A stretch of 32,316 nucleotides of DNA from a virus, in IMG/VR virus record IMGVR_UViG_3300025732_000163, positions 1-32,316 of that record, one strand, 5' to 3'. The notes beneath the pieces are model-generated. The model saw only the letters and a list, made by a program, of their open reading frames with translations, ran no database searches and was not told the DNA's origin. Shown here in pieces: positions 1,495-27,898 of the stretch (the stretch's first letter is position 1; every line of letters begins with the position of its first letter). The position numbers were made by a program, and so were the translations under genes.

Positions 1495-3714
1495 TTACTG
1501 ATATTTATCTAAAAATGGATTAAAACCAGGTTTAAATACCTCTACAAACCTTGGATCTCTTGGATTTTTTACATGTCGATAAGTGCCTCTTCCTGTTATA
1601 GCTTCCTGTTTTGCAATTGCTTTTACATATGCGTCACTAAAATGAGGACCAAAACGTTTATCTCTATTTCTAATTTCTTGCAACATTGCTTGTTCCGCTA
1701 ATTGTACTCTAAGTTTTTCTTGTTCTTTTTGTCTGTTAACTTCAGCAATTCTTAAAACTTCTGCTTGACGATTTGCTTCTTCTTCTCGTCTTCTTGCCTC
1801 TAGCTGTCTTTGTTCCTGCTCAACTCTTCTTAGTTCTGCTTGACGATTTTCTTCGGCAACTCTTGATTCTTCTTGTCTTCTAGCTTCTAAATTTCTTTGT
1901 TCCTGCTCAACTCTTAATCTATTAGCATTCTCTTCTCGTTCTCTTAATACTTTTTGTTGATTTTGAAGTTCGGCACGTTTCTTTAAATCCTGCTCAAGAT
2001 TTATTCTAGCTGCTATTTCATTCTGCAACTTATTGTTCAGTTCATCTCTTTCTATACCGAGTTTTAATCTTTGATTTTTTTCATTCTCATACTCTCCCAT
2101 ATTTTTCTTGGATAACTCTTCAGCTTGAAGTTTATAATCTTCCAAACTTTTTATTTTATCTAAATTTGATGTTCTTTCTTTTTCCATTTCTGAGTATCTA
2201 TTTTGAAGATCACTTATACTAGACAAATCAATACCCTGATTATTGAAATGATTGAATATTGTGTTTATTCCGCTATTAACTCCTCCTTCATATCCACTAT
2301 TTCTTGCATTGGTTAATAGTTTTGGATTCATACCTCCTTTTTCTGCCTGATATGATTTATATAATTGTTCATTATTTTCCTGTGCATTTTTCCATTTTTC
2401 TAATCCTTTTAAATTAGATCTTTTAACATCATCAAGTACTGTTCCAAATTCATTATTAGCTAATTGGTCGTATTGATTAAGTTTATCAATATTATTTAAA
2501 TCACTATACTCTTTATCTGCAATACCTCTTACTAAATCTTCTTTTACTGCTTTTAATTTTGATTCTCCGGTAGCAGACAACAAATCCTGCATTCTATTTG
2601 TAACGGATTTTAAATGTGAATTACTGCCGTACATCCCTTGTTTGATATACCTGCTATTTAAAGCTGTTAAATCATTTATTGCTTTCTTTTTTGCTTCTTC
2701 ATCAAGAGATTCAAACTTTGGTCTTATGTTTTCAGGCAAAGAATTTACAACATTATTTACCGAATTAGTACCATCTACTAAAGATTTTCTAGTTAATTTA
2801 CGATCAAGGTAATTTTTATCTTTATAGAAAGGACTTATATTTTCAGCTAATTCATAAGACTTAGCTAATTCATCATTTACCGGTTCTACTAATTTACCTT
2901 GATAAACAGGTAAATTAGTTCTTGGGGTAGTCATCCATTGATCAACAGGTTTACCTACATCAACACCGTAAGCTTGCAAAGCTTTTATTAACTGTTTACC
3001 TTGTAAATCAAGTACATCAGGATGAGATTGTCCGCTATCTATTCCATCCATTGAATTTAATACGGAGTTAAGATTTTCGATACGTCCGTAAGGCTCATTT
3101 ACTTCTGCATCGAATCTGGCTTTTTCTGCTGTTAATCCTTTATTAACAATACCGTGTTTCTGTTCTCCGTACTTATTAAGAGAATCTATTAAAGCTTTTT
3201 CCCTATTATATTTGTTTTTACCTGATTCAGAAATAGCTTCAAAAGCAAAACGACTCTTCTTCCCTTGAAGTTTTTTTATTTCAGGATTCAAAGTATTTAG
3301 ATCAGACCTGAATTCGTTTGTTTTTAATTGATTGTTTCTATCTACATTATTTCTAAAACTATCGTAGTATCTATTAAAATTATTGCCGAACTGATTTCTT
3401 AATCTATCTGATACAGTCTCTAAACCTCTATTAGCGGTATCATAGGTAAAATCCTGTAACTGATTTATATTACCTTCGTTTATTCCTTCAATAGGAGCAT
3501 TTGCTAGAGTATTTAGATCGTTGGTATACGGCATACCTTTAGCAGTCCTTCTTTCCTCCAATCCTCTTGCTCTTTGAGTCATGGAAGACATTGGAGCTAA
3601 TGTTTTTCCGGGATAAGGTGTATAATTGGAAGTAGATAATCTGCCGCTATCACGAATTAGTAATTGCCTAGCTTTATCTCTTATCTGATCAAAAGGTATA
3701 TACTGTTTTGCCAT
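1495..3714 (-). CDS. Long coiled-coil protein, putative virion/ejection protein
   Basis: 739 aa. The first 480 or so residues are polar and helical. Residues about 500-685 form a long charged coiled coil, rich in Glu, Arg, Gln and Ala, with internal repeats around RVEQEQRNLEARRQEE and RVEQEQRQLEARRREE (29-residue period). A short basic tail ends RFGPHF...KNPRDPRFVEVFKPGFNPFLDKYQ in outline. It is the last gene of a five-gene leftward operon headed by adaptor and tail-nozzle genes, 3 bp after its neighbour. Size, coiled coil and position suggest a tail or internal virion protein delivered with the DNA; a tail fibre or tape-measure role cannot be excluded. No enzymatic motif seen. Confidence 0.8.
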   Translation of the reverse strand: MAKQYIPFDQIRDKARQLLIRDSGRLSTSNYTPYPGKTLAPMSSMTQRARGLEERRTAKGMPYTNDLNTLANAPIEGINEGNINQLQDFTYDTANRGLETVSDRLRNQFGNNFNRYYDSFRNNVDRNNQLKTNEFRSDLNTLNPEIKKLQGKKSRFAFEAISESGKNKYNREKALIDSLNKYGEQKHGIVNKGLTAEKARFDAEVNEPYGRIENLNSVLNSMDGIDSGQSHPDVLDLQGKQLIKALQAYGVDVGKPVDQWMTTPRTNLPVYQGKLVEPVNDELAKSYELAENISPFYKDKNYLDRKLTRKSLVDGTNSVNNVVNSLPENIRPKFESLDEEAKKKAINDLTALNSRYIKQGMYGSNSHLKSVTNRMQDLLSATGESKLKAVKEDLVRGIADKEYSDLNNIDKLNQYDQLANNEFGTVLDDVKRSNLKGLEKWKNAQENNEQLYKSYQAEKGGMNPKLLTNARNSGYEGGVNSGINTIFNHFNNQGIDLSSISDLQNRYSEMEKERTSNLDKIKSLEDYKLQAEELSKKNMGEYENEKNQRLKLGIERDELNNKLQNEIAARINLEQDLKKRAELQNQQKVLREREENANRLRVEQEQRNLEARRQEESRVAEENRQAELRRVEQEQRQLEARRREEEANRQAEVLRIAEVNRQKEQEKLRVQLAEQAMLQEIRNRDKRFGPHFSDAYVKAIAKQEAITGRGTYRHVKNPRDPRFVEVFKPGFNPFLDKYQ

Positions 3715-3717
3715 ATC

Positions 3718-4818
3718 TTAAATTCTTGTTGGATTACCGCTAAATTGCGGATTGTTATAATAATTTAGCCATCTTCCGGTTCTTTCTCTTTCTTCCGGAG
3801 TACTAACTCTTGTATATAACGGATCTATTTCTATTCTTTCTTCCGGTAGGAATTTTTTACGTGAATTCCTACGTTTTGCCTGCTCTACTTGAAGTTCATA
3901 CTGTTCTTGAGCAGCAAGTTCTTCAGGAGTTAGTCGTTGAGCTAGCATTCTCTCTTTTAATTCTTTACCTTCTTGAGCAGCAGTCTTTGGTTTTGGTTGA
4001 TTGAATCTATCGTACAAAGTTAATCCGGTAGTACCAAGAGCCAGTAAATTCTTGGGTTTACTTAGGAAATCCATGCTATTACTCTGTAATTTATCCATGA
4101 AACTCATATCATCTTTTTTCTTTTCTTTTTCAAGAAGATATTGCATATAACTTTCCGTATCATCACCGGCAGATACACCAGCACCTTTAGAACCTCCTAA
4201 GTTACTTAGTAATGACGTAGCTCCGCCGTATTTAGCAGCACTTTTACCCATCCCCATTACGCTAGATCCGGTATCTTTACCAAATCCAAGAGCAGGTAAT
4301 ATGGCATTATCAGTTCCATATTTACTTAAAGTAGAACCAATACCGCCCATACCTAGTTTAGTTGCCCCAAAACCTAATCCTGATGCAACAGAAGGTAAAG
4401 CTGCTCCCATTCCTGCACCTTTTAAAGCTCCTTGTAAAGCGTTTTTACCTCTTGCTGCATGTTGAGCACCTTGACCGACAGCACCGCCTATAATACCTCC
4501 TACTCCCGGTAAAATCATATTACCGATTAAAGCTCCTGCTCCTCCGCCAAGAACACTTTTTATTGCTTTAAAAGGTTTTCTAAAAAAACCTCCTTTATAT
4601 TCTCTAAGCCCTGTTTTTGGATTAATGCTGCCACTACCTCCAAGACTTTTTAATATTTTAGATTCAACAAGATTAATATGAGCAAGTTCTGTGTCTCCTC
4701 CTCTACCTTTTTTCTTTGTTTGCTCCAGTACATCCTTGATATGTTTTTTACTATATTTTTTTAATGTTTTATGTTTATCTTTATTAAACATATCGGATAT
4801 ATGTTTTCTATTTTTCAT
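3718..4818 (-). CDS. Gly/Ala-rich structural protein, putative DNA-ejection protein
   Basis: 366 aa. The basic N-terminus (MKNRKHISDMFNKDKHKTLKKY) is followed by a glycine- and alanine-rich, weakly hydrophobic region at about residues 85-220 with repeated GxGxG runs such as LIGNMILPGVGGIIGGAVG. Similar segments occur in phage ejection proteins and glycine-zipper membrane proteins. The C-terminal third is charged and helical (EEKKKDDMSF, then ERIEIDPLYTRVSTPEERERTG). The start overlaps the stop of the 90-aa gene upstream as ATGA. The function is inferred from composition and its place between the tail nozzle and the coiled-coil protein. Confidence 0.78.
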   Translation of the reverse strand: MKNRKHISDMFNKDKHKTLKKYSKKHIKDVLEQTKKKGRGGDTELAHINLVESKILKSLGGSGSINPKTGLREYKGGFFRKPFKAIKSVLGGGAGALIGNMILPGVGGIIGGAVGQGAQHAARGKNALQGALKGAGMGAALPSVASGLGFGATKLGMGGIGSTLSKYGTDNAILPALGFGKDTGSSVMGMGKSAAKYGGATSLLSNLGGSKGAGVSAGDDTESYMQYLLEKEKKKDDMSFMDKLQSNSMDFLSKPKNLLALGTTGLTLYDRFNQPKPKTAAQEGKELKERMLAQRLTPEELAAQEQYELQVEQAKRRNSRKKFLPEERIEIDPLYTRVSTPEERERTGRWLNYYNNPQFSGNPTRI

Positions 4819-5087: not shown

Positions 5088-6685
5088 TGACCGTCTCCAA
5101 TTTCAAAATTGATTAATATATTACCTACAGTATAAGGATAAACGCATGCAAAAGTTATATTTACAAATCTACCTTGTACTCTCATATCTATTTTACCTCT
5201 ATTATTACCCATAAACAAATCAAATTCTAAAGGAACTATTACTTGTTTCTGTACTCCAGCATATTTAAGCATGGCAGATCCTATAACAAGTAATTCATTT
5301 GCTCTTCTTGTGTATAATTCAGGAGCAGGGAAATCCGGCTCTATCTCGGTAATTCTAATATATTTGTCCATTACTTTACCGTCTTTAGCCGGAGGAAATG
5401 CTGCATATCCAAACCAAGGAGTAGTAAAGAACGAAGGTATATTATGTACTGAATTATCTCTTCTTACCTCATAAAAACCTGTTTCCTGTTTCCATATTGT
5501 TTTATAAGCATTAACAGGGTTATAAGGATAATTAGTGCAACTATCACCATAACTTATTATATCTCCGCTTGCCTCATAAACTGTAACACAATCCCTTTGT
5601 ATTGAAGTGTCATACCAGCTATTTTCTCTTACATTATAAACAAGTTCTCTAGTACATCCTATATCTGCTCTACCCATAAACCTTTTTTCCGGAAAAGCCC
5701 ATCGTATTTCTCCGTAACGAGCTACTTTATATCCATAAATTTTTTCTTTTTTAGTTAAATCAACATTTTCCAGAAACCACTCGAAATTTACATCATTTTT
5801 TATTGATTCAACTATTCCGTTATAAACAAAAGCACGATCCGTACCAAGCCAGAAGAAAAGACTATCGTACTGAACAATAGATTTTGGCGACATGACAGAA
5901 GAATTGGTAGTTATTTCCTCTCTTTGGAATTCAATAGGGGAATTAGGGTTAGTTCCATCTGCAACGTTAGTTAGATATATTACGGAGTTCTGTGTCCAGA
6001 ATAAAAATGTCGGAGCGTTTGCACCTCCTCTAATAGAAGCACCAAATAGCAGTTTATTCTCCGATATTTTATATGAATCGGCATCAGAATCTCCGCTGTC
6101 ATCAAAATCGAGAGGATTACTTGTTTTACTTCTAATTATAGTGCCGTTATTGCCGTACATATACAAACAAGGAGAAGAATATATAATACCTCCTGACGGT
6201 ATATTCCCATAATCGCCTAATACAACATTATTATTCACGAAATCTGCGTTATCATCTGTTACTGATTTATAATATAACACCCCTGGTCTATCGCTTAACA
6301 TATTATTGCCGTTGAAAGTAGAAAGTAACGCTATATAAGGTGTACCATCTTTAATAAATTTAACCGATTGCCAAGTTCTGGCTTGATCTCCGCCAAGTCC
6401 AGCTAAAACCTGTCTATCGTTGGTACTATTAGATAATTCATTGTTAAGAATACAACGATTTACTCCGGTTGAATGTGTATAAATTAGAACAGGATTAGTT
6501 CCGTTAAAATATATATCAAGATATGTAGGTTCAAGTCCTACAGGTTGATATATTTCTTTCTGCCCTTTCATTTTACGTATTTTGCCGTTAACGAATCTTA
6601 TATACTGTCCGTCTATACAATATTCATCCTGGAAATCTCCGGCATTTCTTTGAATACCCGGTTTATAAACTAAAGGAACTCTCAT
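5084..6685 (-). CDS. Tail nozzle/hub protein (P22 gp10-like packaged-DNA stabilisation protein)
   Basis: 533 aa, rich in beta-strand, Gly, Tyr and Asn. The N-terminus (VPLVYKPGIQRNAGDF, then DGQYIRFVNGKIRKMKG) and the repeated beta-propeller-like strands (for example SLFFWLGTDRAFVYNG near residue 280) resemble the nozzle/hub proteins of podovirus tails. These close the tail tube and stabilise packaged DNA. It follows the adaptor gene with a TAATG overlap of 1 bp, matching the adaptor-nozzle gene order of P22- and SU10-type phages. It ends in two consecutive stops (TGA TAA). The assignment rests on fold-like pattern and context and would need a profile search to settle. Confidence 0.75.
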   Translation of the reverse strand: MRVPLVYKPGIQRNAGDFQDEYCIDGQYIRFVNGKIRKMKGQKEIYQPVGLEPTYLDIYFNGTNPVLIYTHSTGVNRCILNNELSNSTNDRQVLAGLGGDQARTWQSVKFIKDGTPYIALLSTFNGNNMLSDRPGVLYYKSVTDDNADFVNNNVVLGDYGNIPSGGIIYSSPCLYMYGNNGTIIRSKTSNPLDFDDSGDSDADSYKISENKLLFGASIRGGANAPTFLFWTQNSVIYLTNVADGTNPNSPIEFQREEITTNSSVMSPKSIVQYDSLFFWLGTDRAFVYNGIVESIKNDVNFEWFLENVDLTKKEKIYGYKVARYGEIRWAFPEKRFMGRADIGCTRELVYNVRENSWYDTSIQRDCVTVYEASGDIISYGDSCTNYPYNPVNAYKTIWKQETGFYEVRRDNSVHNIPSFFTTPWFGYAAFPPAKDGKVMDKYIRITEIEPDFPAPELYTRRANELLVIGSAMLKYAGVQKQVIVPLEFDLFMGNNRGKIDMRVQGRFVNITFACVYPYTVGNILINFEIGDGQ

Positions 6686-7359
6686 TAATTGTTATCTCTT
6701 ATTACTGTTCTATCAGCACTTCTGTCTTTATTGATTTTATTTATGGTATCTAATTCTTCATTAAACAGATTTTTATATTCAGCAAGTTTAGCTGGATTAT
6801 CCAAGAATAAGGATGCTTCAATTAAACAAGAATAAAGAAGTAAATCAGGATAACGATGCGTTAAGAAATTTGTTTGATTCTCATTATTAAATAATGGTAT
6901 ACCGAGGTAAATTATATCAAAAGTATATGATTGATCTAAATTTGGAATAAATGTCCAATAAAATCTATTGTATGTATTTGCTAAATCTGAATTATTTGAA
7001 TTTAATACACTATCACAATAATATTTTGGTCTTCCTGTCTTATTTTGATATCCAAGTGGCCAGTAAGTTATTAAGAATTCCCTGCTTCTTGGTATTAAAT
7101 ATGTAGCTGTTTGTGTGGCAACATCAAACATTAAAACACTAACAGTTTCACGCCAGTTAGCAGGTTTTGTAACTGTGTTAGAACCTACAACATTATTGGT
7201 ATGTTCATATCTTGTTTCAAAACCTAAATCTTTTGCTCTATTATAAACCCTGATAATTCCTTGCTGGATAAGATCAGGTAATTTAGCAACAAAAGGTTGA
7301 TCTGTTCTTAGCATATATAGCTGTAAATCATTGATCAAACTCGTATATGTCATTGCCAT
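6685..7359 (-). CDS. Head-tail adaptor protein (SU10/P22 gp4-like)
   Basis: 224 aa. The helical N-terminus (YTSLINDLQLYMLRTD, then KLPDLIQQGIIRVYNRAKDL) and middle strands (LIPRSREFLITYWP, FDIIYLGIPLF), followed by FLTHRYPDLLLYSCLIEASLF, match the pattern of the adaptor ring that sits under the portal in SU10- and P22-like podoviruses. It is the first gene of the leftward tail operon, so the order is adaptor, nozzle, 90-aa protein, Gly-rich protein, coiled-coil protein. AAAGAAAAATTT precedes the ATG; the SD is weak. Confidence 0.75.
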   Translation of the reverse strand: MAMTYTSLINDLQLYMLRTDQPFVAKLPDLIQQGIIRVYNRAKDLGFETRYEHTNNVVGSNTVTKPANWRETVSVLMFDVATQTATYLIPRSREFLITYWPLGYQNKTGRPKYYCDSVLNSNNSDLANTYNRFYWTFIPNLDQSYTFDIIYLGIPLFNNENQTNFLTHRYPDLLLYSCLIEASLFLDNPAKLAEYKNLFNEELDTINKINKDRSADRTVIRDNN

Positions 7360-7399
7360 AAATTTTTCTTTAATTTTTTGTTTTGCTTTACATATAATT

Positions 7400-7411
7400 T
7401 AGTATATACTA
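7400..7411. promoter_or_regulatory. 12-bp palindrome in divergent promoter region
   Basis: TAGTATATACTA is a perfect palindrome centred between the divergent adaptor gene (minus) and the gene at 7445 (plus). The core TAGTATATAC recurs at 8822-8831 in the next intergenic region. It contains TATACT/TAGTAT hexamers that could act as -10 boxes in either direction, or it could be an operator. No good -35 box is visible. Function is inference. Confidence 0.35.
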
Positions 7412-7444
7412 CATCAGTTAGGAGTTTTTTTATACTTTAATTTT

Positions 7445-7819
7445 ATGAAGAAAAAGTCTGTTTTCAATAATAACGAAGTAGACATAGATTTACTGGTTAA
7501 TCAGCCTAAACATATAAGAAAATTGTTAGGTAAGAAAAAAGACAGAAATGAAGAAAATGAAGTAGAAGTAGAAGAAGACGAAGATAAAGATGATAATGAA
7601 GATGATGATACTGATACCAAAAGTATAAGTCCTCATATGAAGCGTTATATAGAAGAGTATATTGATTCTAAGAAGGTTAAGAAAAAACCTAATTTTATGG
7701 TTAAATCTGCTGACAAAATCAATAGTTTTATAGATGAAACATACGATAACGCTAAAAAAAGCAAAAAAGATAAAGACGGAATCATAGAAAGTTATTTAAA
7801 AAGAAAGTTTAGTAAATAA
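7445..7819 (+). CDS. Highly charged small protein, unknown
   Basis: 124 aa. Lysine-rich ends flank an acidic block (residues about 38-60, EVEVEEDEDKDDNEDDDTDT), followed by a helical basic C-terminus (YLKRKFSK). TAGGAG lies about 25 bp upstream of the ATG. The stop overlaps the start of the next gene by 1 bp (TAATG). Acidic low-complexity proteins like this may be scaffold-like or DNA mimics, but nothing in the sequence decides this. Confidence 0.7.
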   Translation: MKKKSVFNNNEVDIDLLVNQPKHIRKLLGKKKDRNEENEVEVEEDEDKDDNEDDDTDTKSISPHMKRYIEEYIDSKKVKKKPNFMVKSADKINSFIDETYDNAKKSKKDKDGIIESYLKRKFSK

Positions 7820-7995
7820 TGTTTCAATATATTAAATATTTAAGAGATATTATTTTTATTATTCTTTTAATTAGATTAACTTTTATTGAAAATGATTCAA
7901 TATGGTTATTAATTGAATTAGCATCATCTCTAGCATATATTTTTATACCTAATAATTCATCAAATAAAACTGATATAATAGATACACCAGAATGA
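7819..7995 (+). CDS. Small membrane protein
   Basis: 58 aa, starting MFQYIKYLRDIIFIILLIRL with a hydrophobic helix at about residues 9-22 and a second weak one at 28-43 (WLLIELASSLAYIFI), then a polar tail NNSSNKTDIIDTPE. It shares the last base of the preceding stop codon (TAATG), which supports translation by coupling. A holin-like role is possible from size and topology, but it is not next to the lysis genes. Confidence 0.55.
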   Translation: MFQYIKYLRDIIFIILLIRLTFIENDSIWLLIELASSLAYIFIPNNSSNKTDIIDTPE

Positions 7996-8194
7996 TTGAT
8001 ACATATATCTTATTTACCGTTTTTATTCTATAATATTCTATATACTTAAATCAATAATACTGAATAACAAATTAAACTATAGATATATATTATTTTTAAT
8101 TATTATACCTATAATCTATAAACCATCAATAATTTACTTTTTATCAAAAATAGAAAATAAAACTATTATTGAATTTATACACTTCAAAGACTAA
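7992..8194 (+). pseudogene. Possible frameshifted small membrane ORF
   Basis: ATG at 7992 overlaps the previous stop (ATGA) and opens MIDTYILFTVFIL before a TAA. The -1 frame across the T-run near 8020 continues for about 55 codons as an Ile/Leu/Tyr-rich stretch with a lysine-containing end (KIENKTIIEFIHFKD) and stops at 8192-8194. Read together they would be one membrane protein of about 65 aa interrupted by a single-base change. The AT-rich composition makes spurious hydrophobic ORFs common, so this is weak. Confidence 0.25.
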
Positions 8195-8322
8195 CTATCT
8201 TTTTTATCTAAACTATAGAAAAATTTACCGCAACTACAACATTCTATTATTATACTTATATACACTTGAGCCATACCGTAATGTATGTATTTACAGTGTT
8301 TGCAGGTATACTTAATCTCCAT
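8191..8322 (-). CDS. Zinc-ribbon miniprotein
   Basis: 43 aa. It contains TCKHCKYIHYG (CxxC) and, 20 residues later, ECCSCGKFFYS (CCxC), an arrangement expected of a one-zinc ribbon. The start ATG lies inside the 3' end of the upstream 124-aa gene (11-bp overlap), so expression is probably coupled. It ends tail-to-tail with the plus-strand reading frame that stops at 8194. The role is unknown; such ribbons usually bind nucleic acid or protein partners. Confidence 0.6.
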   Translation of the reverse strand: MEIKYTCKHCKYIHYGMAQVYISIIIECCSCGKFFYSLDKKDS

Positions 8323-8686
8323 AAGGATCGAATATTTCTTTTAGTAATCTTTTTTCTTTCTTAGCTTTTATCTCTTTGTAAAATCTCTCTAGTGCCGTAT
8401 CTTCTGATATCATTTCCGATATTAATTTGTTCTCAATAGTTGATTCTTTTATAATTTTCTTTGGTTTATGAATGTAACCTATGGTTAATCCTCTATCTTT
8501 ATTGATGTAATTTAAATTGTTAAGTTCAATTATCATACTAAAATATTTCAAACTTATTTTAAGTTCTAAAGCTAGTGAAGTTTTGGATTTACAGTTATCA
8601 AGTAAATTCTGTAACTCTTCAATAGTATATTTCTTAATTATCTTATCGTATTTGGAAATATATTTTGAATTGGTTTTAATTTTCAT
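8312..8686 (-). CDS. Putative HTH DNA-binding protein
   Basis: 124 aa, Lys-rich. Residues about 19-55 (YTIEELQNLLDNCKSKTSLALELKISLKYF in outline) look like a helix-turn-helix of the kind where a short conserved helix pair follows an EEL/LL segment. The C-terminal 60 residues are charged and helical. It is divergent from the rightward ejection genes across a hairpin-rich spacer, a plausible place for a regulator. No specific family recognised. Confidence 0.6.
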   Translation of the reverse strand: MKIKTNSKYISKYDKIIKKYTIEELQNLLDNCKSKTSLALELKISLKYFSMIIELNNLNYINKDRGLTIGYIHKPKKIIKESTIENKLISEMISEDTALERFYKEIKAKKEKRLLKEIFDPYGD

Positions 8687-8710
8687 GATTTATTTACGGA
8701 CTAATATAGA

Positions 8711-8745
8711 TAAACGCTACCAAGGATATACCTTAATAGCGTTTA
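8711..8745. repeat. Two-tier hairpin upstream of the 8686 gene
   Basis: TAAACGCTA (8711-8719) pairs with TAGCGTTTA (8737-8745), and inside it AAGG pairs with CCTT (8722-8725 / 8731-8734). It lies just upstream of the leftward gene at 8686. There is no T-run on either side, so it is more likely an operator or a leader structure than a terminator. Confidence 0.5.
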
Positions 8746-8864
8746 CCATACACAACAAAACTAAATTTATTTAATTTAAGGTAAATAAATTTTTTGACGC
8801 TACATGATGACATAGCTTAACTAGTATATACAATTATATGAAATTTGTAAACAAATATATTTAA

Positions 8865-8899
8865 TTCCTTATCTATTAAGGTAAGTAATAGATAAGGAA
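8865..8899. repeat. 13-bp perfect inverted repeat
   Basis: The 13-mer TTCCTTATCTATT at 8865-8877 is matched exactly by its complement at 8887-8899 around a 9-nt loop. The stem is long and perfect, with no following T-run in either direction. It sits in the 385-bp gene-free stretch (8687-9071) between divergent genes; a regulatory role is likely, and the identity is unknown. Confidence 0.55.
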
Positions 8900-8944
8900 A
8901 AAGGTATAGATTTTATAGATAAAACTTAAATGATAAAATTTAAG

Positions 8945-8973
8945 AAATCTGACTTTATAGGATAATCAGATTT
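8945..8973. repeat. 8-bp stem hairpin
   Basis: AAATCTGA (8945-8952) pairs with TCAGATTT (8966-8973) around a 13-nt loop. It is the third of three successive stem-loops between the divergent genes at 8686 and 9072. I see no convincing promoter in this spacer apart from scattered AT-rich -10-like hexamers. Confidence 0.4.
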
Positions 8974-9071
8974 ATATAATAAACTATTTGTAAAGTCAAT
9001 TATACTGCTTAACTATTTATATTAAATGAATTATAATATTATTTATTCATTTAATCAATTATTAACTTGGA

Positions 9072-10214
9072 ATGAAACGATATATCGATGAGATGCAGAG
9101 CAGGGGAAGAGAGATAGAGAATGAAGTTGACTCTAAAAATCTCTTTGATTCAGGAATTACCAGAGCTATTAAGTCTGCTAGACAGTCTTTAGGGTTAGAT
9201 CAGGACCAAGAGCATAAAGCTATTAGAAAAGGGTTATTCCGTTTCTCTGATGCTCTAACGCAGCAATATGGTGATCCGAGATTTACTAATAGAAAAGGAG
9301 CAGTCAATAATCTAGCATCTATTGCTCCTGCAATGGCTAAAGGTCTTGAAGGATACGAGGATGCTTCCGATAACATACAACATAATAATCGTGAAGTTTA
9401 TGAATGGGCTAAGAAGTTTAGAGACTCGGAAATTAAAAGATTAAGAGATGAGGATAAAGAAGCTTTTGATAGATACTTTGCCGATAAGAAACTTGGCATA
9501 GAATTAGCAAAACTTGATGAGCAAAGAGATTATCATAAAGGAATGCTTGAGAATAAGAATTCTGCAATTTCAAATAAAGAACCAGCATATAATAAAGATA
9601 TAAGAAGTGCTAATTTAAAAAATGTTTCAGAATCAAGGGATACAGTATTATCTGATATGGCTCTAGTTGAAACATTAAATGATTTGGAAGAAGCTTTTAA
9701 AGAAGCTAAGGAAGCAGGATATATAGGATCTTCTTATGAAGCTGCGGCTAGACGAAGACTCGCTAAATCTATTGGTGATACAAAACATCTAGATTTAATT
9801 AAAGCTGCTGAAGCTGCATATTTACATAGAGTTAAACAAGGTGGAGGAAGTAACCCATCTACATATGAATTTACTGAAATTCTAAAAACAATACCAAGTA
9901 GTGATAAACATTATGACGCATCTATGGCTATACTACAAAAAGATAGAAATAATGCTATAAGGAGATTGAAAGATTATAATGATTATACCAATAAATTAAA
10001 AGAAACAAAATATTTATTAGATCCAACTATTAATGTTGATAGTTATATAAACACTATTGAACAGAATAAAAATACTACAAATACTGCAAATAACACAGAT
10101 AATGTACCTAATTCTGTTATATTATATGACCCTAAAACTAATGAATATTTTAATGTTCCAGAAAGTGATTTATCTACTGTTTTAATTGATCATCCTCATT
10201 TAATTAGGAAATAA
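9072..10214 (+). CDS. Putative internal virion/ejection protein
   Basis: 380 aa, strongly helical and charged, without signal or membrane segments. The long helical middle (EVYEWAKKFRDSEIKRLRDE, then FADKKLGIELAKLDEQRDY) and a later segment with GYIGSSYEAAARRRLAKSIGD resemble DNA-ejection or internal core proteins of podoviruses. The C-terminus is an Asn/Thr-rich linker followed by SVILYDPKTNEYFNVPESDL. It is followed 1 bp later by the larger ejection-like gene, so the two are co-translated. The family assignment is inferred from size, composition and order. Confidence 0.65.
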   Translation: MKRYIDEMQSRGREIENEVDSKNLFDSGITRAIKSARQSLGLDQDQEHKAIRKGLFRFSDALTQQYGDPRFTNRKGAVNNLASIAPAMAKGLEGYEDASDNIQHNNREVYEWAKKFRDSEIKRLRDEDKEAFDRYFADKKLGIELAKLDEQRDYHKGMLENKNSAISNKEPAYNKDIRSANLKNVSESRDTVLSDMALVETLNDLEEAFKEAKEAGYIGSSYEAAARRRLAKSIGDTKHLDLIKAAEAAYLHRVKQGGGSNPSTYEFTEILKTIPSSDKHYDASMAILQKDRNNAIRRLKDYNDYTNKLKETKYLLDPTINVDSYINTIEQNKNTTNTANNTDNVPNSVILYDPKTNEYFNVPESDLSTVLIDHPHLIRK

Positions 10215-10215
10215 T

Positions 10216-11856
10216 ATGTCTAAATATGATTTACAAAAATATAAAATATCTCCACCAAAAGAGTTTGATTCTGAAATAGAAGGATATATTACTCCTAAAA
10301 AGAAAATAGATTTATCTAAATATAAAATATCTACTCCAGAAGAATTTAAAACTTCCGAACCTGAAGGAGATAGTGATGCAGCTATTATTGGTAAATCAGT
10401 ATTAAAAGGTTTAGGTTCTATTGCAGATTTACCAATAATAGCTGCTTCAGGATTAGAAGCAATAGCAGTTAGTAAAGCCAAGAGAAATGCAGGAGGATTA
10501 TATGCTCCTGATTTTCAAGGAGATGATGTTGATATACAAGATATTGATTTTATAAGTTCACGTATTCCTTCTACCGATGATGCAAGAAGTTATCTTAAAG
10601 AAAAAACAGGTATAGACCTTGAACCGCATCCAACCAATGCAACACAGAGGATGATTTCTCACGGAGGAGAATTTGCAGGGAGTATGATAGGTATGGGAGG
10701 ATTAGGATCAATACTAAAAGCAGGTAAAGCCGGATTATCTGCATATAAACCGGCACAAATAGCTAAAGATACTTTAACCGGAGCTAGTATAGGTTTAGGT
10801 TCTGGTGGTTTACAGGAATCAGGGGTTAATCCATTGGTTGCCGATATTGGAGTATCAATATTACATCCAACTTCCATAGCAGCAATTAAAGCACCGTATA
10901 ATTTCGGTAAAAATCTTTTTTCTACTGAAGGCGCAAAAAAATCGGTAAGCGATATGCTAAAACAAAGAGTAGGTAAAGATAATATCAATGTTGTAGCCGA
11001 AAGATTATCAGGTACATCACCTTTAAATACTGAATTACTTACAGCAGAACTTGCCGAAAATGCAGGTCTTGCGGGTATTCATCGTGCGTATGCTCCAAAT
11101 ATACCTGCAATAGCAGAGAAAAATAAAAGAAATAACGATATAATAAGATACGCTCTTGAAGAAGTAGGAGATACAAGTTTAGACCCATATATAGCGGGTG
11201 AAATTATAAGAGATCCAATTGTTAAAAATCTGGAAAAATATAAAAAGACTAGAGCCGCTAAAACAGAACCTTTGTATGCTGAACTTGATGCTATTGAAAC
11301 TCCGGTTAGTTTAAATAATACACAAAATTTTCTAGACACTAATTACGTTAATGCAACCGATACAAGACAAAAAACAATAGATAGAATTAGAAGAAATCTT
11401 GTTGAAGAAGATAAACATAAACTTCTCGAAGAATTTGAAAAAAAATATGGTCAATTAAGTAGTGATGCAAAAGCACAAGCATTTAATCAATTAAATCTTG
11501 GATTAGCACATAATCCAGCTAAAATAAGTAATGTAATACAGGAGCTTGGTGATAAAGTTAAAAGCACTAAAAAACCTAAGTTTCGTAGATTTATAACAGA
11601 AACAAGAGAAAATTTAAAATCAGATATTGAAAATGCCGGAATACCACAGGAAAAAATTGCCCGTGAAGCTTATTCCAAATACTCTAAACCAGTTAATGCT
11701 ATAGAAGAAAACCCCTTATTATCTAAAATAGTTAAAAAAGATTTAACTTCAGGAAATTATCAAATACCTCAAGAAAAAATACCTCAATTTATTTTTAATG
11801 GTAGTGTTAATGATATAAAAGAATTAATTAAACAGATAAAGAAAAATCCACTTTAA
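10216..11856 (+). CDS. Ejection-like virion protein, N-terminal part of a split gene
   Basis: 546 aa. The N-terminus carries two copies of a short motif (DLQKYKISPPKEF at about 4-16 and DLSKYKISTPEEF at about 32-44). A Gly/Ala-rich, membrane-active-looking region (about 145-230, SMIGMGGLGSILKAGKAGLS, TGASIGLGSGGLQESG) precedes a long helical C-terminal domain. This pattern occurs in podovirus ejection proteins. The frame ends abruptly at ...QIKKNPL with TAA (and TAG two codons on), right where a duplicated sequence begins. The downstream gene in the same frame resumes with TLDTLRGQTTKHIL, which reads as the natural continuation. I therefore regard this as the 5' two-thirds of an ancestral gene of about 720 codons. 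Confidence 0.75.
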   Translation: MSKYDLQKYKISPPKEFDSEIEGYITPKKKIDLSKYKISTPEEFKTSEPEGDSDAAIIGKSVLKGLGSIADLPIIAASGLEAIAVSKAKRNAGGLYAPDFQGDDVDIQDIDFISSRIPSTDDARSYLKEKTGIDLEPHPTNATQRMISHGGEFAGSMIGMGGLGSILKAGKAGLSAYKPAQIAKDTLTGASIGLGSGGLQESGVNPLVADIGVSILHPTSIAAIKAPYNFGKNLFSTEGAKKSVSDMLKQRVGKDNINVVAERLSGTSPLNTELLTAELAENAGLAGIHRAYAPNIPAIAEKNKRNNDIIRYALEEVGDTSLDPYIAGEIIRDPIVKNLEKYKKTRAAKTEPLYAELDAIETPVSLNNTQNFLDTNYVNATDTRQKTIDRIRRNLVEEDKHKLLEEFEKKYGQLSSDAKAQAFNQLNLGLAHNPAKISNVIQELGDKVKSTKKPKFRRFITETRENLKSDIENAGIPQEKIAREAYSKYSKPVNAIEENPLLSKIVKKDLTSGNYQIPQEKIPQFIFNGSVNDIKELIKQIKKNPL

Positions 11857-11860
11857 CAAT

Positions 11861-12030
11861 AGAGAGTAAAGAAAATGAACATTATTGAAGCGATGCAAAA
11901 ATTAAAATTAGGTAAAACTATAAACAGAAAAAGTCATAGACTTCCAGAAAAAACATATGGAATAAAACATGACAGACCCATCTCCATAATAGAGGAAACT
12001 GAAAAAGGTCAGTGGGTAGAAAATCCAAAA
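11861..12030 (+). repeat. Inserted copy of the 5' end of the Tad2-like gene
   Basis: This 170-bp segment is an inverted-orientation copy of 18824-18993. It covers about 14 bp of upstream sequence (two mismatches there) and the first 52 codons, with 7 mismatches in the 156 coding bases. It interrupts the ejection-like gene. Near-identical sequence, AAAAATCCA-CTTTA on the left (about 11842-11855) and AAAATCCAAAAACTTTA on the right (about 12020-12036), flanks the insert, suggesting microhomology-mediated joining or a target duplication. The insert brings its own ATG, so the downstream half is still translated as a chimera. Confidence 0.85.
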
Positions 12031-12564
12031 ACTTTAGATACTTTAAGAGGACAAACTACTAAACATATTTTAAGCGGTAGTGAGCTTGCAAGTGCTGATG
12101 GTAATTTATCTTATCCTAAACTGAAAAAATTCTTAACAAAAAATAGAGAAAAACTAAATTTAATTTATACTCCGGAACAATTAAAAATTTTTGATGATGC
12201 ACTAGAAATAACGAGAAAAAGAAATTTTGTTGATACTTTTGGAAGAGCAAAAGGTTCAAATACACAATCAGAAACTACTTTAATGAATAATCTATTTAAT
12301 ACAGGATTAGATATGTCAATTAAAAAAGGTTTAACTAGTTATATACCTGGAGCATCTGCATTATATAGTTCAATTAAAAGCGGTTTAAATAATATAGGAA
12401 AAGTAAAAAAAGATGAAATAATTTCTAATGCTTTACTTGACCCAACATTAGCTAAAGAATTATTATTAAGACCTGATATAGCACCTTGGTATCAAAGATT
12501 AGGTAAAGATTATTATAAACCTCTTCAAACTTCAATAATACTAGGTGCTACAAGAGATAAATGA
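11875..12564 (+). CDS. Chimera: Tad2-like N-terminus fused to ejection-protein C-terminus
   Basis: 229 aa. Residues 1-52 (MNIIEAMQKLKLGKTINRKS...) are about 90% identical to the start of the Tad2-like protein encoded at 18731-18979. Residues 53-229 are unrelated to that family and look like the missing end of the 546-aa upstream protein: TLDTLRGQTTKHIL, YPKLKKFLTKNREKL, YTPEQLKIFDDALE, GRAKGSNTQSETTLMNNL, a pattern seen at the C-termini of phage ejection proteins. The upstream AGAGAGTAAAGAAA offers a weak SD. Whether the C-terminal part still assembles into virions as a separate polypeptide is unknown. Confidence 0.75.
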   Translation: MNIIEAMQKLKLGKTINRKSHRLPEKTYGIKHDRPISIIEETEKGQWVENPKTLDTLRGQTTKHILSGSELASADGNLSYPKLKKFLTKNREKLNLIYTPEQLKIFDDALEITRKRNFVDTFGRAKGSNTQSETTLMNNLFNTGLDMSIKKGLTSYIPGASALYSSIKSGLNNIGKVKKDEIISNALLDPTLAKELLLRPDIAPWYQRLGKDYYKPLQTSIILGATRDK

Positions 12565-18496: not shown

Positions 18497-18734
18497 CACT
18501 TTTATCTCCATTAGCTAATTTATGTGAAAGGAAATTATCTATGTTAACTATATTACTTATGTTTCCAATTGGACTTCCAAATTCTACTAAATCAAATTTT
18601 TCAGCAAACTTATTCCAAAATGCTTTACTTATCTTTTTCCTTTCTTTTTTGTATCTTTTAAACGCTTCTTTACTTGATAAAGGTGTATCAAATTCAATAT
18701 TGTTAATTTTTACAAATTTTATTTCCTTATTCAT
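18486..18734 (-). CDS. Hypothetical protein, 82 aa
   Basis: 82 aa with a Lys/Arg-rich middle (KEAFKRYKKERKKISKAFWN) and a C-terminus containing NIVNIDNFLSHKLANGDKSD. Its ATG overlaps the stop of the Tad2-like gene as ATGA, with the SD (GGGAGG) encoded by that gene's WEVVE tail. Basic stretch could bind nucleic acid. Unknown family. Confidence 0.6.
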   Translation of the reverse strand: MNKEIKFVKINNIEFDTPLSSKEAFKRYKKERKKISKAFWNKFAEKFDLVEFGSPIGNISNIVNIDNFLSHKLANGDKSDDK

Positions 18735-18979
18735 TCCACTACCTCCCAGTCATTTGCTAAAATATCGTCATCTAAAAAAATCATTTTAAAACCCTCTGGA
18801 GTATGTATTTCTATCGCAGAACCTTTTGGATTTTCTACCCACTGACCTTTTTCAATTTCCTCTATTATGTAGATGGGTCTGTCATGTTTTATTCCATATG
18901 TTTTTTCTATAAGTCTATGACTTTTTCTGCTTATAGTTTTACCTAATTTTAAATTTTGTATCGCTTCAATAATGTTCAT
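18731..18979 (-). CDS. DUF2829/Tad2-like protein, candidate anti-Thoeris sponge
   Basis: 82 aa. The N-terminus MNIIEAIQNLKLGKTISRKS and the C-terminus DDDILANDWEVVE fit the pattern of DUF2829 phage proteins: a start like MNFxEAIxxLKxGKxVxRxxW and an end like DLLAxDWEVVE. Members named Tad2 bind the Thoeris signal molecule gcADPR. The middle (IYIIEEIEKGQWVENP, IEIHTPEGFKMI) is compatible with the small beta-rich fold. Note the W of the usual RKxW motif is absent: here RKSHRL. The family call is moderate, since DWEVVE endings also recur here for RBS reasons. A copy of its first 52 codons sits inside the ejection gene at 11861-12030. Confidence 0.55.
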   Translation of the reverse strand: MNIIEAIQNLKLGKTISRKSHRLIEKTYGIKHDRPIYIIEEIEKGQWVENPKGSAIEIHTPEGFKMIFLDDDILANDWEVVE

Positions 18980-19118
18980 TTTCTTTTCTTTCTTCGTTAT
19001 ATTTTTCTAATAACAACCTATATAATTTTTGGTCTGTTTGATAATATTTAATATTAGACATAAGATGAGTATACAATAAATCATACGCTTTATTTTTCGT
19101 TTCTTTTGTGTTGTTCAT
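18966..19118 (-). CDS. Small charged protein, 50 aa
   Basis: 50 aa, polar and helical: MNNTKETKNKAYDLLYTHLM, then YYQTDQKLYRLLLEKYNEER. Its 3' end overlaps the start of the Tad2-like gene by 14 bp. The TKETxNKA start also occurs in the 91-aa protein at 19321-19596 (MSDTKETENKALTIF), suggesting a shared N-terminal module. It starts within the broken DUF2829-like gene's stop (ATGA). Confidence 0.55.
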   Translation of the reverse strand: MNNTKETKNKAYDLLYTHLMSNIKYYQTDQKLYRLLLEKYNEERKENEHY

Positions 19119-19324
19119 TCCACTATCTCTCAATCGTCTGCTAATATTTCATCTTCTAACGTATAATATTCTTCACCACAAATTCTTTTTTTTAATAATT
19201 CTTTGGCGTATCCTAGATTATGTTGCTTATTATCATAATCAACTAACTGATTTTTCCCCTGCACATACCATTCGCCTATTTCGTATCAAATAAAATCTAC
19301 TTGTTGTTTTGTAAATTCTCTCAT
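19115..19324 (-). pseudogene. Broken gene with two in-frame TGA codons at likely Trp positions
   Basis: From ATG 19324 (overlapping the stop of the 91-aa gene as ATGA) the frame stays open to 19115 apart from TGA at 19286-19288 and 19130-19132. The residues around them read QVDFI*YEIGEWYVQGKNQL and EDEILADD*EIVE. By analogy with DILANDWEVVE in the neighbouring Tad2-like protein, the second TGA replaces TGG (Trp). The first also looks like a former TGG. No SD defect or frameshift is seen. Most likely a gene decayed by two G-to-A changes; reading through TGA would restore a 69-aa protein of unknown family. Confidence 0.6.
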
Positions 19325-19596
19325 TTTACTTCCTCCCAAATTACTTTATCTGTTTCTAAATCAAAAACTATTCTTTCCGTATAATTATAAATTTTTAATA
19401 ACTTATTAAATTCATAACTATTAATAAATTCCATGACCTCTTCTCTAGTATTAAAATATTTGTTGTAGTGATCAACTCCCATTTCATCAAAAAAACATAA
19501 TTCAAACTTAGGTTTTACTGTATCATTAATATTTCTTTTTTCTATTTCTTTAAATATTGTTAATGCTTTATTTTCAGTTTCTTTTGTATCACTCAT
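19321..19596 (-). CDS. Hypothetical protein, 91 aa
   Basis: 91 aa: helical N-terminus (TKETENKALTIFKEIEKRNI) and beta C-terminus (TERIVFDLETDKVIWEEVK). The end is related to the 92-aa protein at 20873-21151 (DDRIIVVNLETDEIVFDTDR), so the two may be diverged paralogues. Its last codons, TGGGAGGAAGTAAAATGA, also supply the SD and overlapping start of the next gene. AGGTATATAAA precedes its own ATG within a 32-bp repeat. Function unknown. Confidence 0.65.
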   Translation of the reverse strand: MSDTKETENKALTIFKEIEKRNINDTVKPKFELCFFDEMGVDHYNKYFNTREEVMEFINSYEFNKLLKIYNYTERIVFDLETDKVIWEEVK

Positions 19597-23212: not shown

Positions 23213-23779
23213 TTAAGCTGCCTTACTGTTTTCAAGCAATTTGTTAATCTCTATTACTACTTCACTATCCTTGCCGTAATAATACTGGAAATATGATATA
23301 CCTTTTTCAGCAAAGTAAGAATGTTCATCATAAGAGCCGTCAGCTAGTAACTGATAAGCTTCAAGTTTGTATGTAAAATCCATACCGCAACCTCCGAAAG
23401 ACAATAGCTGTAAGTCTTCATCTTCCGTCTTTATTTCAAAAGGTATGAATCCGCAAAGGTCGGCAATCTCTTCATCATATATACGAGGCTCATACACATA
23501 GTTATACATTAAACAGTCATCTTCTAATGAATATTTAGCTTCATAATAAAGTTCATTGTATTTATCTTGGACATAATCCAAAAAGCTGTCGTATTTATTT
23601 GTGTTGTATTTAAGTTTAATGTCATAACCATCCTTTAAATTATCTTCAAGAATGAAATCAGGGATAATCAACTCTGTTTTACCCTCGTCAAATCTCTTGT
23701 TTAACTCAAATCTCGGTAAGTAATGTTGTGTATAAAAAGGTTCAATGTGTATTCCAGAAAATTGTTTTGTTAATGTCAT
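23213..23779 (-). CDS. Hypothetical protein, 188 aa, first gene of leftward operon
   Basis: 188 aa, acidic and Tyr-rich: FSGIHIEPFYTQHYLPRFEL, then EAKYSLEDDCLMYNYVYEPR, EDLQLLSFGGCGMDFTYKLE and AYQLLADGSYDEHSYF. The GGCGMDFTYKL segment is the most distinctive part; I do not recognise the family. Located directly downstream of the promoter at 23822-23872, so it is likely among the first genes expressed leftward. TTTAAAGGTAAATATT precedes the ATG. Confidence 0.7.
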   Translation of the reverse strand: MTLTKQFSGIHIEPFYTQHYLPRFELNKRFDEGKTELIIPDFILEDNLKDGYDIKLKYNTNKYDSFLDYVQDKYNELYYEAKYSLEDDCLMYNYVYEPRIYDEEIADLCGFIPFEIKTEDEDLQLLSFGGCGMDFTYKLEAYQLLADGSYDEHSYFAEKGISYFQYYYGKDSEVVIEINKLLENSKAA

Positions 23780-23790
23780 AATATTTACCT

Positions 23791-23811
23791 TTAAATTTAG
23801 TTGCGTTTTGT
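23791..23811 (-). repeat. 21-bp leader repeat (second copy 21506-21526)
   Basis: These 21 bases, containing TAGTTGCG, are identical to 21506-21526. Both lie just upstream of gene starts (23779 and 21491), directly 5' of the SD, followed by a GTGT-rich tract. Looser versions (GTTTTGTGTGTGTTAA-like) occur near 13910-13930 and 17200-17222. They may be conserved 5'-UTR elements of leftward mRNAs. Confidence 0.75.
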
Positions 23812-23821
23812 ATGTAGTTTA

Positions 23822-23872
23822 AGTTTATAGGTTGAAATTCATTATGTCAACACTAAAAATATATTTGTATAC
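23822..23872 (-). promoter_or_regulatory. Leftward promoter with GTATAC operator
   Basis: On the minus strand, TTGACA (23845-23850) is followed by TAAACT at a 17-bp spacing, or TATAAA at 15. The TTGTATACAA palindrome (GTATAC at 23867-23872) precedes the -35 box with the same spacing and flanks as at 17810. The gene start at 23779 lies about 45 bp downstream of the -10. Confidence 0.6.
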
Positions 23873-24018
23873 AATTATTTTAATATGTTGCAAATATATC
23901 ATAATAGTTGATAAAGTTTATGTTAGTATAGCTTGATAGTTGAATTTTAGATATTTGAAGTTTTTTTATATGAGTAATAAATTTTTCTTCATGCAAAAAG
24001 TTATTTTCCATTAATTTA

Positions 24019-24318
24019 TTATTTTAAAACAACAATTCTATATTTGATATTATCGTCAAATATATCGTCCTCAATAAGTTTTATATATACGAAACACTTA
24101 TTATCTACCAACTCCTTAATTCTGAATCTACCTTTTGACATATTTATTATATTGTAATCCTCGTTACAATACTTCCCTATATTGTCTTCTCTTAAAATAT
24201 ATAATCTATATTCATTTTCTGCTATTTTATGGCATGCAACAAGAGATGTAATATTGCATCCCTTAATTTTAATAAATCCTCTACTTATTTTTGCTATATC
24301 TTTTTTGTTTATATACAT
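24019..24318 (-). CDS. Hypothetical protein, 99 aa
   Basis: 99 aa, basic and beta-rich: MYINKKDIAKISRGFIKIKG, then ACHKIAENEYRLYILREDN and NKCFVYIKLIEDDIFDDNIK. Likely the first gene reached by transcripts from the control region at its right, separate from the promoter at 23822-23872. No SD is visible before the ATG, so the start is uncertain. The 234 bp between it and that promoter hold nothing else that I recognise. Family not recognised. Confidence 0.5.
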   Translation of the reverse strand: MYINKKDIAKISRGFIKIKGCNITSLVACHKIAENEYRLYILREDNIGKYCNEDYNIINMSKGRFRIKELVDNKCFVYIKLIEDDIFDDNIKYRIVVLK

Positions 24319-24663
24319 GTTTTTATATTTTTTATACTTTTTATATTTTAGTTATTTTCCTTGTTATTTCAATAAATCTTTCAAAAAAATTAGGTTTTTA
24401 CAGTTTTTTTAAAAATTTGACTCAAAATTTACTATTTTCAGTTGAAAATGTAGTATTCTGTAAAATATATTTTTACGTAAGGGGTTTTTGTAGTATTAGC
24501 AGTTGAATATAGTATTTTTTAGATGGTTTTAGGAGGTTAGTTAAATATATGTTAATTTTATTTATTTTTTTAATGTTTAGTTAATTTATTAAATATTATA
24601 GGTTATTTTATTTATGCAATGTTACTAACTTACGGTATGGCTTGCATTTTTTAAAAAATGTAG

Positions 24664-24693
24664 TTGACGCAAGGGTTTGGAGGATGTTATACT
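24664..24693 (+). promoter_or_regulatory. Rightward promoter reading into the inverted repeat
   Basis: TTGACG (24664-24669), an 18-bp spacer and TATACT (24688-24693) give a good sigma70 match. There is no gene for over 900 bp downstream; the transcript would first cross the 49-bp inverted repeat (24768-25041) and could therefore fold into a long RNA hairpin. Confidence 0.5.
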
Positions 24694-24767
24694 TTCCATA
24701 ATATAGATCACAAACATCTTATAGTTTAGTAACTAATAGTTTAATTAACCTATGGTTGAACGCCTAA

Positions 24768-25041
24768 TGTCACTAGTCAGAACTGACATTATAGAAATGA
24801 CAAATTGAAAACCCTTATATCTATTACTATTCAAATATATATTTGTCATTTGTCATTAAAATATTATAAAAGATTATATAAAAATAATAGATGGCAAAAA
24901 TAGAGGGAGGAGAGGGAGAGTGAAAAATAATATAAGAGTTTGTGATTTTTTTCTGACAAATGACATTTTGTATCTTCAAACCTTTTTGTTAAAAGGGTTT
25001 TCAATTTGTCATTTCTATAATGTCAGTTCTGACTAGTGACA
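24768..25041. repeat. Perfect 49-bp inverted repeat with 176-bp spacer
   Basis: Bases 24768-24816 (starting TGTCACTAGTCAGAACTGAC) are the exact reverse complement of 24993-25041. Inside the spacer, TGTCATTTGTCA (about 24844) is mirrored by TGACAAATGACA (about 24954). Next to the right arm, AAACCTTTTT (24978-24987) pairs with AAAAGGGTTT (24991-25000). The arms also contain the short inverted pair GTCAG-CTGAC. No ORF lies inside. It could be a miniature mobile element (no target duplication visible), a replication or recombination site, or a structured RNA. Confidence 0.85.
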
Positions 25042-25361
25042 AGGATTTTTAGCTAAACCGCTCCAATCCCTTATAGAATAAGGCTTACAAGGATATTATC
25101 AGTAAAATAAACATAGTGCAAGTAGTAATATAAAAAATTTTTATATATCTTAAAACCCTTATTATATAAGGGATTAAGAGATAAACAGAATAAAACATCA
25201 AAAAAATTTTATTTTATTGTTTTCACTTCGACGGAGGTAAGAGGAGGAAAAAATATAGTATTCTATAAAATTTGATTTAAACAGTCTAAAATAATTTTAT
25301 GTGGGTATATAGCTTAGCATATATTATAACTTCTAAAAACATATTTAAAACTCGTTTAAAT

Positions 25362-25375
25362 GATATTTAAATATC
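25362..25375. repeat. 14-bp perfect palindrome
   Basis: GATATTTAAATATC is a complete palindrome in the control region, adjacent to another loose inverted pair (TTTAAAACTCGTTTAAA). It could be a protein site or simple AT-rich symmetry. No gene within 250 bp. Confidence 0.4.
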
Positions 25376-25407
25376 AAACTTCACTTATATTAAATTTTAA
25401 ATTCAGT

Positions 25408-25426
25408 TGTACGATTTTTTCGTACA
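25408..25426. repeat. 7-bp stem hairpin TGTACGA/TCGTACA
   Basis: TGTACGA (25408-25414) pairs with TCGTACA (25420-25426) around TTTTT. It lies about 20 bp upstream of the promoter of the candidate small RNA, so it may be an operator for it. Not T-run terminated on the plus strand. Confidence 0.4.
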
Positions 25427-25446
25427 GCAAATAACTTTACTGGATA

Positions 25447-25545
25447 TTGACAATAGTAATGATTGAAGATAGTATCAATTTATCTGCTAAAGGCGATTGA
25501 TTTCTTATATTTAAAGGGTTTGTGTTCATATACGAACCCTTTTAT
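25447..25545 (+). ncRNA. Candidate small RNA: promoter, 60-nt transcript, terminator
   Basis: TTGACA (25447-25452), a 17-bp spacer and TAGTAT (25470-25475) form a near-consensus promoter. About 35 bp after the likely start, AAGGGTTTGT pairs with ACGAACCCTT (one G-U pair) and is followed by TTTTAT, a convincing intrinsic terminator at about 25513-25545. No ORF fits between them. A short RNA of about 60 nt is expected; its target is unknown. Alternatively the terminator serves rightward readthrough from the promoter at 24664. Confidence 0.5.
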
Positions 25546-25588
25546 AATATCCTCTACACTTTCCATAATAAATGTTATGTATAATCTG

Positions 25589-25639
25589 TTGACTAATTGT
25601 ATTGTCTATTATATAAACATTTAATAATTTTGTGTATAC
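25589..25639 (+). promoter_or_regulatory. Rightward promoter of the packaging block with GTATAC operator
   Basis: TTGACT (25589-25594), a 17-bp spacer and TATAAA (25612-25617) precede the ATG at 25657. GTATAC (25634-25639, within TGTATACAAT) lies just downstream of the likely start. The same TGTATACAA core lies upstream of the two leftward promoters, so one regulator may control both directions. Confidence 0.6.
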
Positions 25640-25656
25640 AATAATAGGTTAACATA

Positions 25657-25851
25657 ATGCAAACACTTCATCGAATAAATGAAAGCAATACATCACAAGA
25701 AATTAACCATGATAATATATTAACTAGATTACAAACGTTGGAGATAAGAACAAGCAATTTAACTGTTGATATAAAAAGTCTAGAAAATGTTATTATAGAA
25801 GTGATAAACGCTATTGGTTTAGGACCAAGAATAAAGGATGATAATAAATAG
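25657..25851 (+). CDS. Small coiled-coil protein
   Basis: 64 aa: polar N-terminus (MQTLHRINESNTSQEINHDN) and a heptad helix LTRLQTLEIRTSNLTVDIKS continuing to VIIEVINAIGLG. First gene after the rightward promoter. Overlaps the next gene by 14 bp. Unknown function. Confidence 0.55.
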   Translation: MQTLHRINESNTSQEINHDNILTRLQTLEIRTSNLTVDIKSLENVIIEVINAIGLGPRIKDDNK

Positions 25852-27550: not shown

Positions 27551-27896
27551 ACAACAATATTTAAAATTTTTAAATGATTATAAAGAAATAGTAACACTTG
27601 TTTACGATATAAAAGAGTTATTGGATGACCATATAAACATAAGAGAGACTGAAAGTACTTTTTTAATATCAGATAAAAACAATTTAAAAGATAGATACAG
27701 AGAGATATTACGTAAAATAAAGCCTGATATCCATGCTATTACACAAGAAGTAGGAGTATTCAAGTATAACTTTACTCGGCTAACTAAAGATAATAGCACT
27801 TATAATTCTACTGATCTATTACCTGCATGTGTAATAAGTGAAATATACGAAAAGTTGAACGATATAGAAAATAAGTTAATAGGTATTAATAAATAA
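27543..27896 (+). CDS. Coiled-coil protein, 117 aa
   Basis: 117 aa from ATG 27543; an in-frame TTG/ATG-less extension upstream is not needed. Starts MNKQQYLKFLNDYKEIVTLV, helical throughout (DIKELLDDHINIRETES, YREILRKIKPDIHAITQEVG). Together with its neighbour it may form a pair of small helical proteins before the large terminase. Ends 2 bp before the terminase ATG. Confidence 0.55.
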   Translation: MNKQQYLKFLNDYKEIVTLVYDIKELLDDHINIRETESTFLISDKNNLKDRYREILRKIKPDIHAITQEVGVFKYNFTRLTKDNSTYNSTDLLPACVISEIYEKLNDIENKLIGINK

Positions 27897-27898
27897 TA

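Follow-up and report, generated by a model that had tools for sequence, protein, structure and literature searches.

Several phage genes are known to be split, among them the T4 topoisomerase large subunit gene (mobA), Aeh1 nrdA (mobE) and phage 25 gene 43 (PMC2988022). In T4-type phages, split genes can remain functional, and the halves of Aeh1 nrdA and of phage 25 gene 43 work together (PMC2988022). Splitting by insertion itself is therefore not new, and the unusual part of the locus described here is the agent, a copy of a fragment of the phage's own gene. Very probably, a self-copy of a Tad2-like gene split a gene of the virion cluster, presumably by microhomology-guided copying, which would leave two polypeptides in its place.

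Short DNA inserted inside reading frames is also found in rickettsiae as Rickettsia palindromic elements. These are palindromic, keep the frame without stops and occur in many dispersed copies.

The DNA analysed, referred to as the window, is the linear virus record IMGVR_UViG_3300025732_000163 of 32,316 bp. It encodes a terminase large subunit (phrog_38), a virion structural protein (phrog_3287), an endolysin (Pfam search) and a portal-type protein that is kin to the head-to-tail connectors of, among others, the Roseobacter phages CRP-901/902 and the Pelagibacter phage HTVC023P. The terminase ORF (27899-29947) contains a small intein-like insert of about 141 aa at 28406-28826 (Pfam Intein_splicing, 8.5e-11), probably too short for a homing endonuclease; it is present in the related contigs L003 and L012 and absent from L004, L005 and L007. 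Just 5' of the terminase gene (27890-27901), L003, L004 and L012 carry about 0.8-1 kb of extra DNA, which in L004 (2463-3256) codes for a protein that by eye resembles a phage antirepressor. A gene-poor stretch at 24768-25041 holds long inverted repeats of 52 nt (98%) that enclose a 36-nt pair, a possible replication origin or regulatory site. The features of the split gene and of its donor are as follows:

9072..10214 (+): upstream neighbour, 380 aa, which adjoins the split gene in viral relatives as well
10216..11856 (+): ORF A, 546 aa, made up of codons 1-545 of the virion-type gene that was split, a new codon CTT and the stop TAA
11843..11850 (+): left flank repeat AAAATCCA, whose AAT CCA encodes N544-P545 of ORF A
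11851..11855 (+): CTTTA, repeated at 12032-12036, a possible remnant of a target duplication
11854..11862 (+): in-frame stops TAA (11854-11856) and TAG (11860-11862), which end the upstream half
11861..12030 (+): insert of 170 nt, copied from the 5' part of the Tad2-like gene and including its start codon and upstream DNA
11875..12564 (+): ORF B, 229 aa, chimeric, with Tad2-like residues 1-52 followed by the C-terminal piece of the virion-type gene
12020..12027 (+): right flank repeat AAAATCCA, which also belongs to the donor gene and shares the codon phase of the left copy
12031..12564 (+): C-terminal piece of 177 aa, now detached, matching the C-terminus of an uninterrupted homologue
18731..18979 (-): intact Tad2-like gene, 82 aa (Pfam PF11195)
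18824..18993 (-): the 170 nt at the donor site, inverted relative to 11861-12030

ORF A stops at the junction, as the preliminary description had stated, and both of its in-frame stops precede the new ATG of ORF B, which is read in the same frame. From gene order, namely its position in the virion gene cluster, the split gene is a candidate ejection protein. Pfam, PHROG, NCBIfam and structure evidence yielded no family name for it; searches of NCBIfam, PDB and Rfam gave no match, and the AlphaFold models of ORF A and ORF B (pLDDT 36-38) showed no usable fold. A lead to phrog_22963 was dropped because it led nowhere.

The 170 nt at the junction had been described as about 95% identical to 18824-18993; the alignment gives 94.7% (9 of 170 positions differ), with the two copies in opposite orientation. 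The next-longest inverted match between distant places of the window spans 44 nt at 73%, so the repeat lies far beyond chance. The donor gene matches PF11195 over the full profile length (1-73 of 73; 2.1e-6, 28.6 bits, above the cut-off of 25 bits). The inserted copy starts about 14 nt 5' of the ATG and comprises the start codon and the first 52 of 82 codons. With 5% divergence between the copies, the event is not a very recent one, unless a sister phage served as donor. The Tad2-like family appears prone to duplication, as such genes (MNIIEA... ...NDWEVVE) stand in tandem in relatives (L019, about 2900-3750; L057, 12956-13365 (-)). A further Tad2-like C-terminal stretch, LEDEILADD*EIVE, lies at window 19110-19339 (-), with TGA at the position of a Trp in the paralogue and another TGA further upstream (DFI*YEIGEW). 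It is a pseudogene or is read with TGA as Trp; the window has no tRNA genes.

The insert holds Tad2-like residues only, and no endonuclease, intron or splicing domain was found in it: it matches no Rfam family, and ORF B, which carries codons 1-52 of 82 and hence no complete Tad2-like domain, has no Pfam match. Its shortness, the rickettsial setting and a distance between the flank repeats that is a multiple of three would suit a mobile insertion into coding DNA like a Rickettsia palindromic element. Such an origin is most improbable, as the insert is a gene fragment and not a palindrome, carries two stops at its left edge, occurs in only two copies in the window, matches no Rfam family and has an RNA fold z of only -1.6.

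The preliminary description had also proposed that the sequence past the insert is the missing C-terminus of ORF A in the same frame. The coding potential of this piece is +0.40 in the ORF B frame and negative in the other two forward frames, so that ORF A and the C-terminal piece lie in one frame with the same coding signal. The piece has no in-frame start before 12283, i.e. for 84 codons, which indicates that it was once read from upstream.

Plasmids were searched with an alphaproteobacterial frame and then with A and B, which led to a plasmid of the protist symbiont Candidatus Megaera polyxenophila (CP113873.1). This plasmid encodes the same protein over its whole length in a single uninterrupted CDS of 727 aa (23510-25693; WPX99986.1, Megpolyxen_01900), and the gene upstream of it corresponds to that of the window (37% identity). 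Residues 1-549 of the Megaera CDS match residues 1-545 of ORF A (67% identity, E = 0), and residues 552-724 match the post-insert piece (50-51% identity, 6e-45). The first match ends at 25156 and the second resumes at 25160, with three nt between them, and at the DNA level both flanks of the insert fall on one continuous stretch of the CDS. Across the junction, the Megaera translation reads ...QIRGNPKALDTLRGQ..., while the window has ...QIKKNPL-stop at the left edge and ...ENPKTLDTLRGQ... at the right edge, which fixes the insertion point to within about a codon. No Tad2-like match was found in the 22.8 kb of the plasmid examined.

A more distant homologue also appears to read through the junction, in weaker support of B as the continuation of A. 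It is a 461-aa open frame of the alphaproteobacterial genome G505, reached by a search with the tail of ORF A, that matches ORF A residues 334-544 (2e-18) and extends 176 aa past the junction point, compared with 177 aa in the window; the Megaera C-terminus aligns to this extension with a z of 6.5. G505 has two copies of this gene, both broken (L099, 5855-8028; L100, 6699-10725), one by an apparent frameshift and the other by an ORF similar to group II intron reverse transcriptases.

Together, the Megaera CDS and the G505 homologue show that the insert split one ancestral gene. This virion-cluster gene comprised about 720 codons, and the break lies after its Asn-Pro codons (window codon 545), just before the Lys that follows. 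Alternatively, ORF A could be complete with its natural C-terminus and ORF B could stem from a deletion that fused the Tad2-like gene to the end of another gene. With 546 aa, ORF A is not far below orthologues of 590 aa. This reading is nevertheless refuted by the C-terminal piece of B, which continues A naturally in the Megaera CDS and more weakly in G505; it also leaves AAAATCCA at the end of A unexplained and is given almost no credence.

Some 22 complete, more distant orthologues, drawn from viral contigs and one MAG, each form a single ORF of 590-657 aa beside the same upstream gene. A two-gene arrangement throughout the relatives, on which the proposed disruption would have failed, is therefore not what is seen. 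Homology to about 25 viral orthologues is limited to the N-terminal part of ORF A. ORF B gave no signal against the viral family profile (p 0.57), and a likeness to the C-termini of the viral orthologues that had been seen by eye was dropped on this result. Scans of viral contigs with A, the A tail, B and the Tad2-like protein returned no relatives, and weak Rickettsiales matches to ORF B were to ordinary cellular proteins. The contig L055, 90-95% identical to the window over 5490-9555, carries a 0.68-kb insertion (3533-4213, at window 9002) and then a quite different, diverged allele of the split gene, in which the contig ends; this pattern suggests a recombination breakpoint near 9555.

The split form comes from a single metagenomic assembly, and the junction is not covered in any close relative. 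An assembler could in principle have joined a Tad2 fragment into the gene, given a single contig on which this fragment is present elsewhere. We regard such an assembly or strain artefact as very unlikely: the copy differs from its donor at 9 of 170 positions and is not simply a duplicated stretch of reads, the flanks correspond to the halves of a known gene, with order, strand and frame all correct, and two separate wrong joins would be required.

Relatives of the split gene were found in a Megaira phage, a Rickettsiales MAG and plasmids of Candidatus Megaera and Candidatus Bealeia. From where these relatives lie, the window phage likely has a host of the Rickettsiales type. The Megaera match speaks for infection, present or past, of Rickettsiales inside protists by phages of this lineage.

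Short near-repeats had been reported to flank the insert, and two were located: AAAATCCA begins at 11843 and 12020, 177 nt (59 codons) apart in the same codon frame, and CTTTA at 11851 and 12032. The chance of finding AAAATCCA in a random 20-nt stretch of the window is about 0.003, and that of any right-junction 8-mer about 0.007. At the right edge, AAAATCCAAAA is common to the donor gene and the inserted copy, and the target evidently had nearly this sequence too. At the left junction, about 10 nt (CTTTAACAAT) are of ambiguous origin and could be target duplication or diverged donor DNA. The presence of AAAATCCA at both edges in the same codon frame fits a microhomology-mediated insertion.

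In the proposed mechanism, the insert would arise by illegitimate, microhomology-guided copying, e.g. by a template switch during replication or recombination, with the two loci lying either in one genome or in co-replicating relatives. A polymerase would leave the target after CTTTA, copy the Tad2-like locus and be guided back to the target by pairing at AAAATCCAAAA. Its return would leave the flanking AAAATCCA...CTTTA near-repeat, save for a four-base difference in the A run. Copying by template switch is compatible with donor and target lying in inverted orientation.

The same repeats could instead make the insert a switch rather than a scar. In bacteriophage T4 gene 60, ribosomes bypass 50 nt, and a stop lies close after the take-off codon. 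A full-length protein might likewise still be made here, either by ribosomal hopping over 177 nt between the AAT-CCA codons or by frequent slippage deletion between the AAAATCCA repeats during replication in part of the population, and split, chimeric and full-length forms would coexist. Matched in-frame codon pairs on both sides and a stop close after the would-be take-off codon are what this predicts; the gap, however, is 3-4 times longer than the known bypass, the weak fold (z -1.6) offers no strong RNA structure, and the insertion mechanism alone predicts the same repeats. Such a switch, in either form, is accordingly a far-fetched option.

Under the preferred reading, a split by a Tad2-like self-copy, a start and 52 codons from the Tad2-like gene run in frame into the old C-terminus in ORF B. 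As the C-terminal piece lacks a start of its own, it would probably be translated from the Tad2-derived ATG, if at all. This ATG lies 18 nt past the stop of ORF A, a distance that would allow re-initiation, and the mechanism would yield two polypeptides, ORF A and ORF B. Our best guess is that ORF A is still made and ORF B at least weakly.

The preliminary description had taken the open C-terminal part as a sign of selection or of a recent event. ORF B is indeed fully open, but selection follows only weakly from this, as neutral drift at 4.5% divergence would leave the frame free of stops with a probability of about 0.09 and a relative-rate test on B was not significant (14 versus 7 unique changes, a mild excess on the window side, p 0.19). 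The split gene may instead be simply broken, with ORF B lacking useful translation and the phage either defective or making do with A. This outcome has a considerable probability, though one clearly under even. It would accord with the mild excess of unique changes in B, with its lower conservation against Megaera (51% versus 67% for A; dN 0.42 versus 0.22) and with the differing codons between copy and donor, 6 of 6 of which are nonsynonymous; zero synonymous among seven changes has P near 0.24 at an expected synonymous share of about 0.19 and is not significant. Against it stand the open frame, the nearby ATG and the block RKRNFVDTFGRAKGSNTQSET, the most conserved of ORF B, which is unchanged relative to Megaera. 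The chance that the two halves reassemble is put just short of even, and that of ORF B being a decaying remnant a little below even.

For this one split of a phage gene, donor, target, junction repeats and an uncut homologue are all identified. The case shows how, by copying a fragment of its own genome and without a mobile element, a phage can divide a large gene of structural type and give rise to a chimeric one. If both halves are functional, a virion protein can be added to the few split phage proteins known; otherwise, the case documents early decay.

Compared with known systems, the insert shares with Rickettsia palindromic elements that it is short DNA within a reading frame and differs in being a single, non-palindromic gene fragment that carries stops. 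With the Tad2-like family (PF11195; Thoeris anti-defense 2), the donor shares the full profile, whereas the inserted copy covers the first 52 of 82 codons only. The donor is thus possibly an anti-defence gene; donor and fragment are assigned by sequence family, and gcADPR sequestration or blocking of Thoeris is putative. The splits of the T4 topoisomerase gene, Aeh1 nrdA and phage 25 gene 43 are the closest parallels, as there too a contiguous phage gene was cut by insertion into two coding regions. Their insert, in contrast, is a homing endonuclease or an intercistronic element, whereas in the window part of an unrelated gene of the phage itself was copied in and became fused to the second half.
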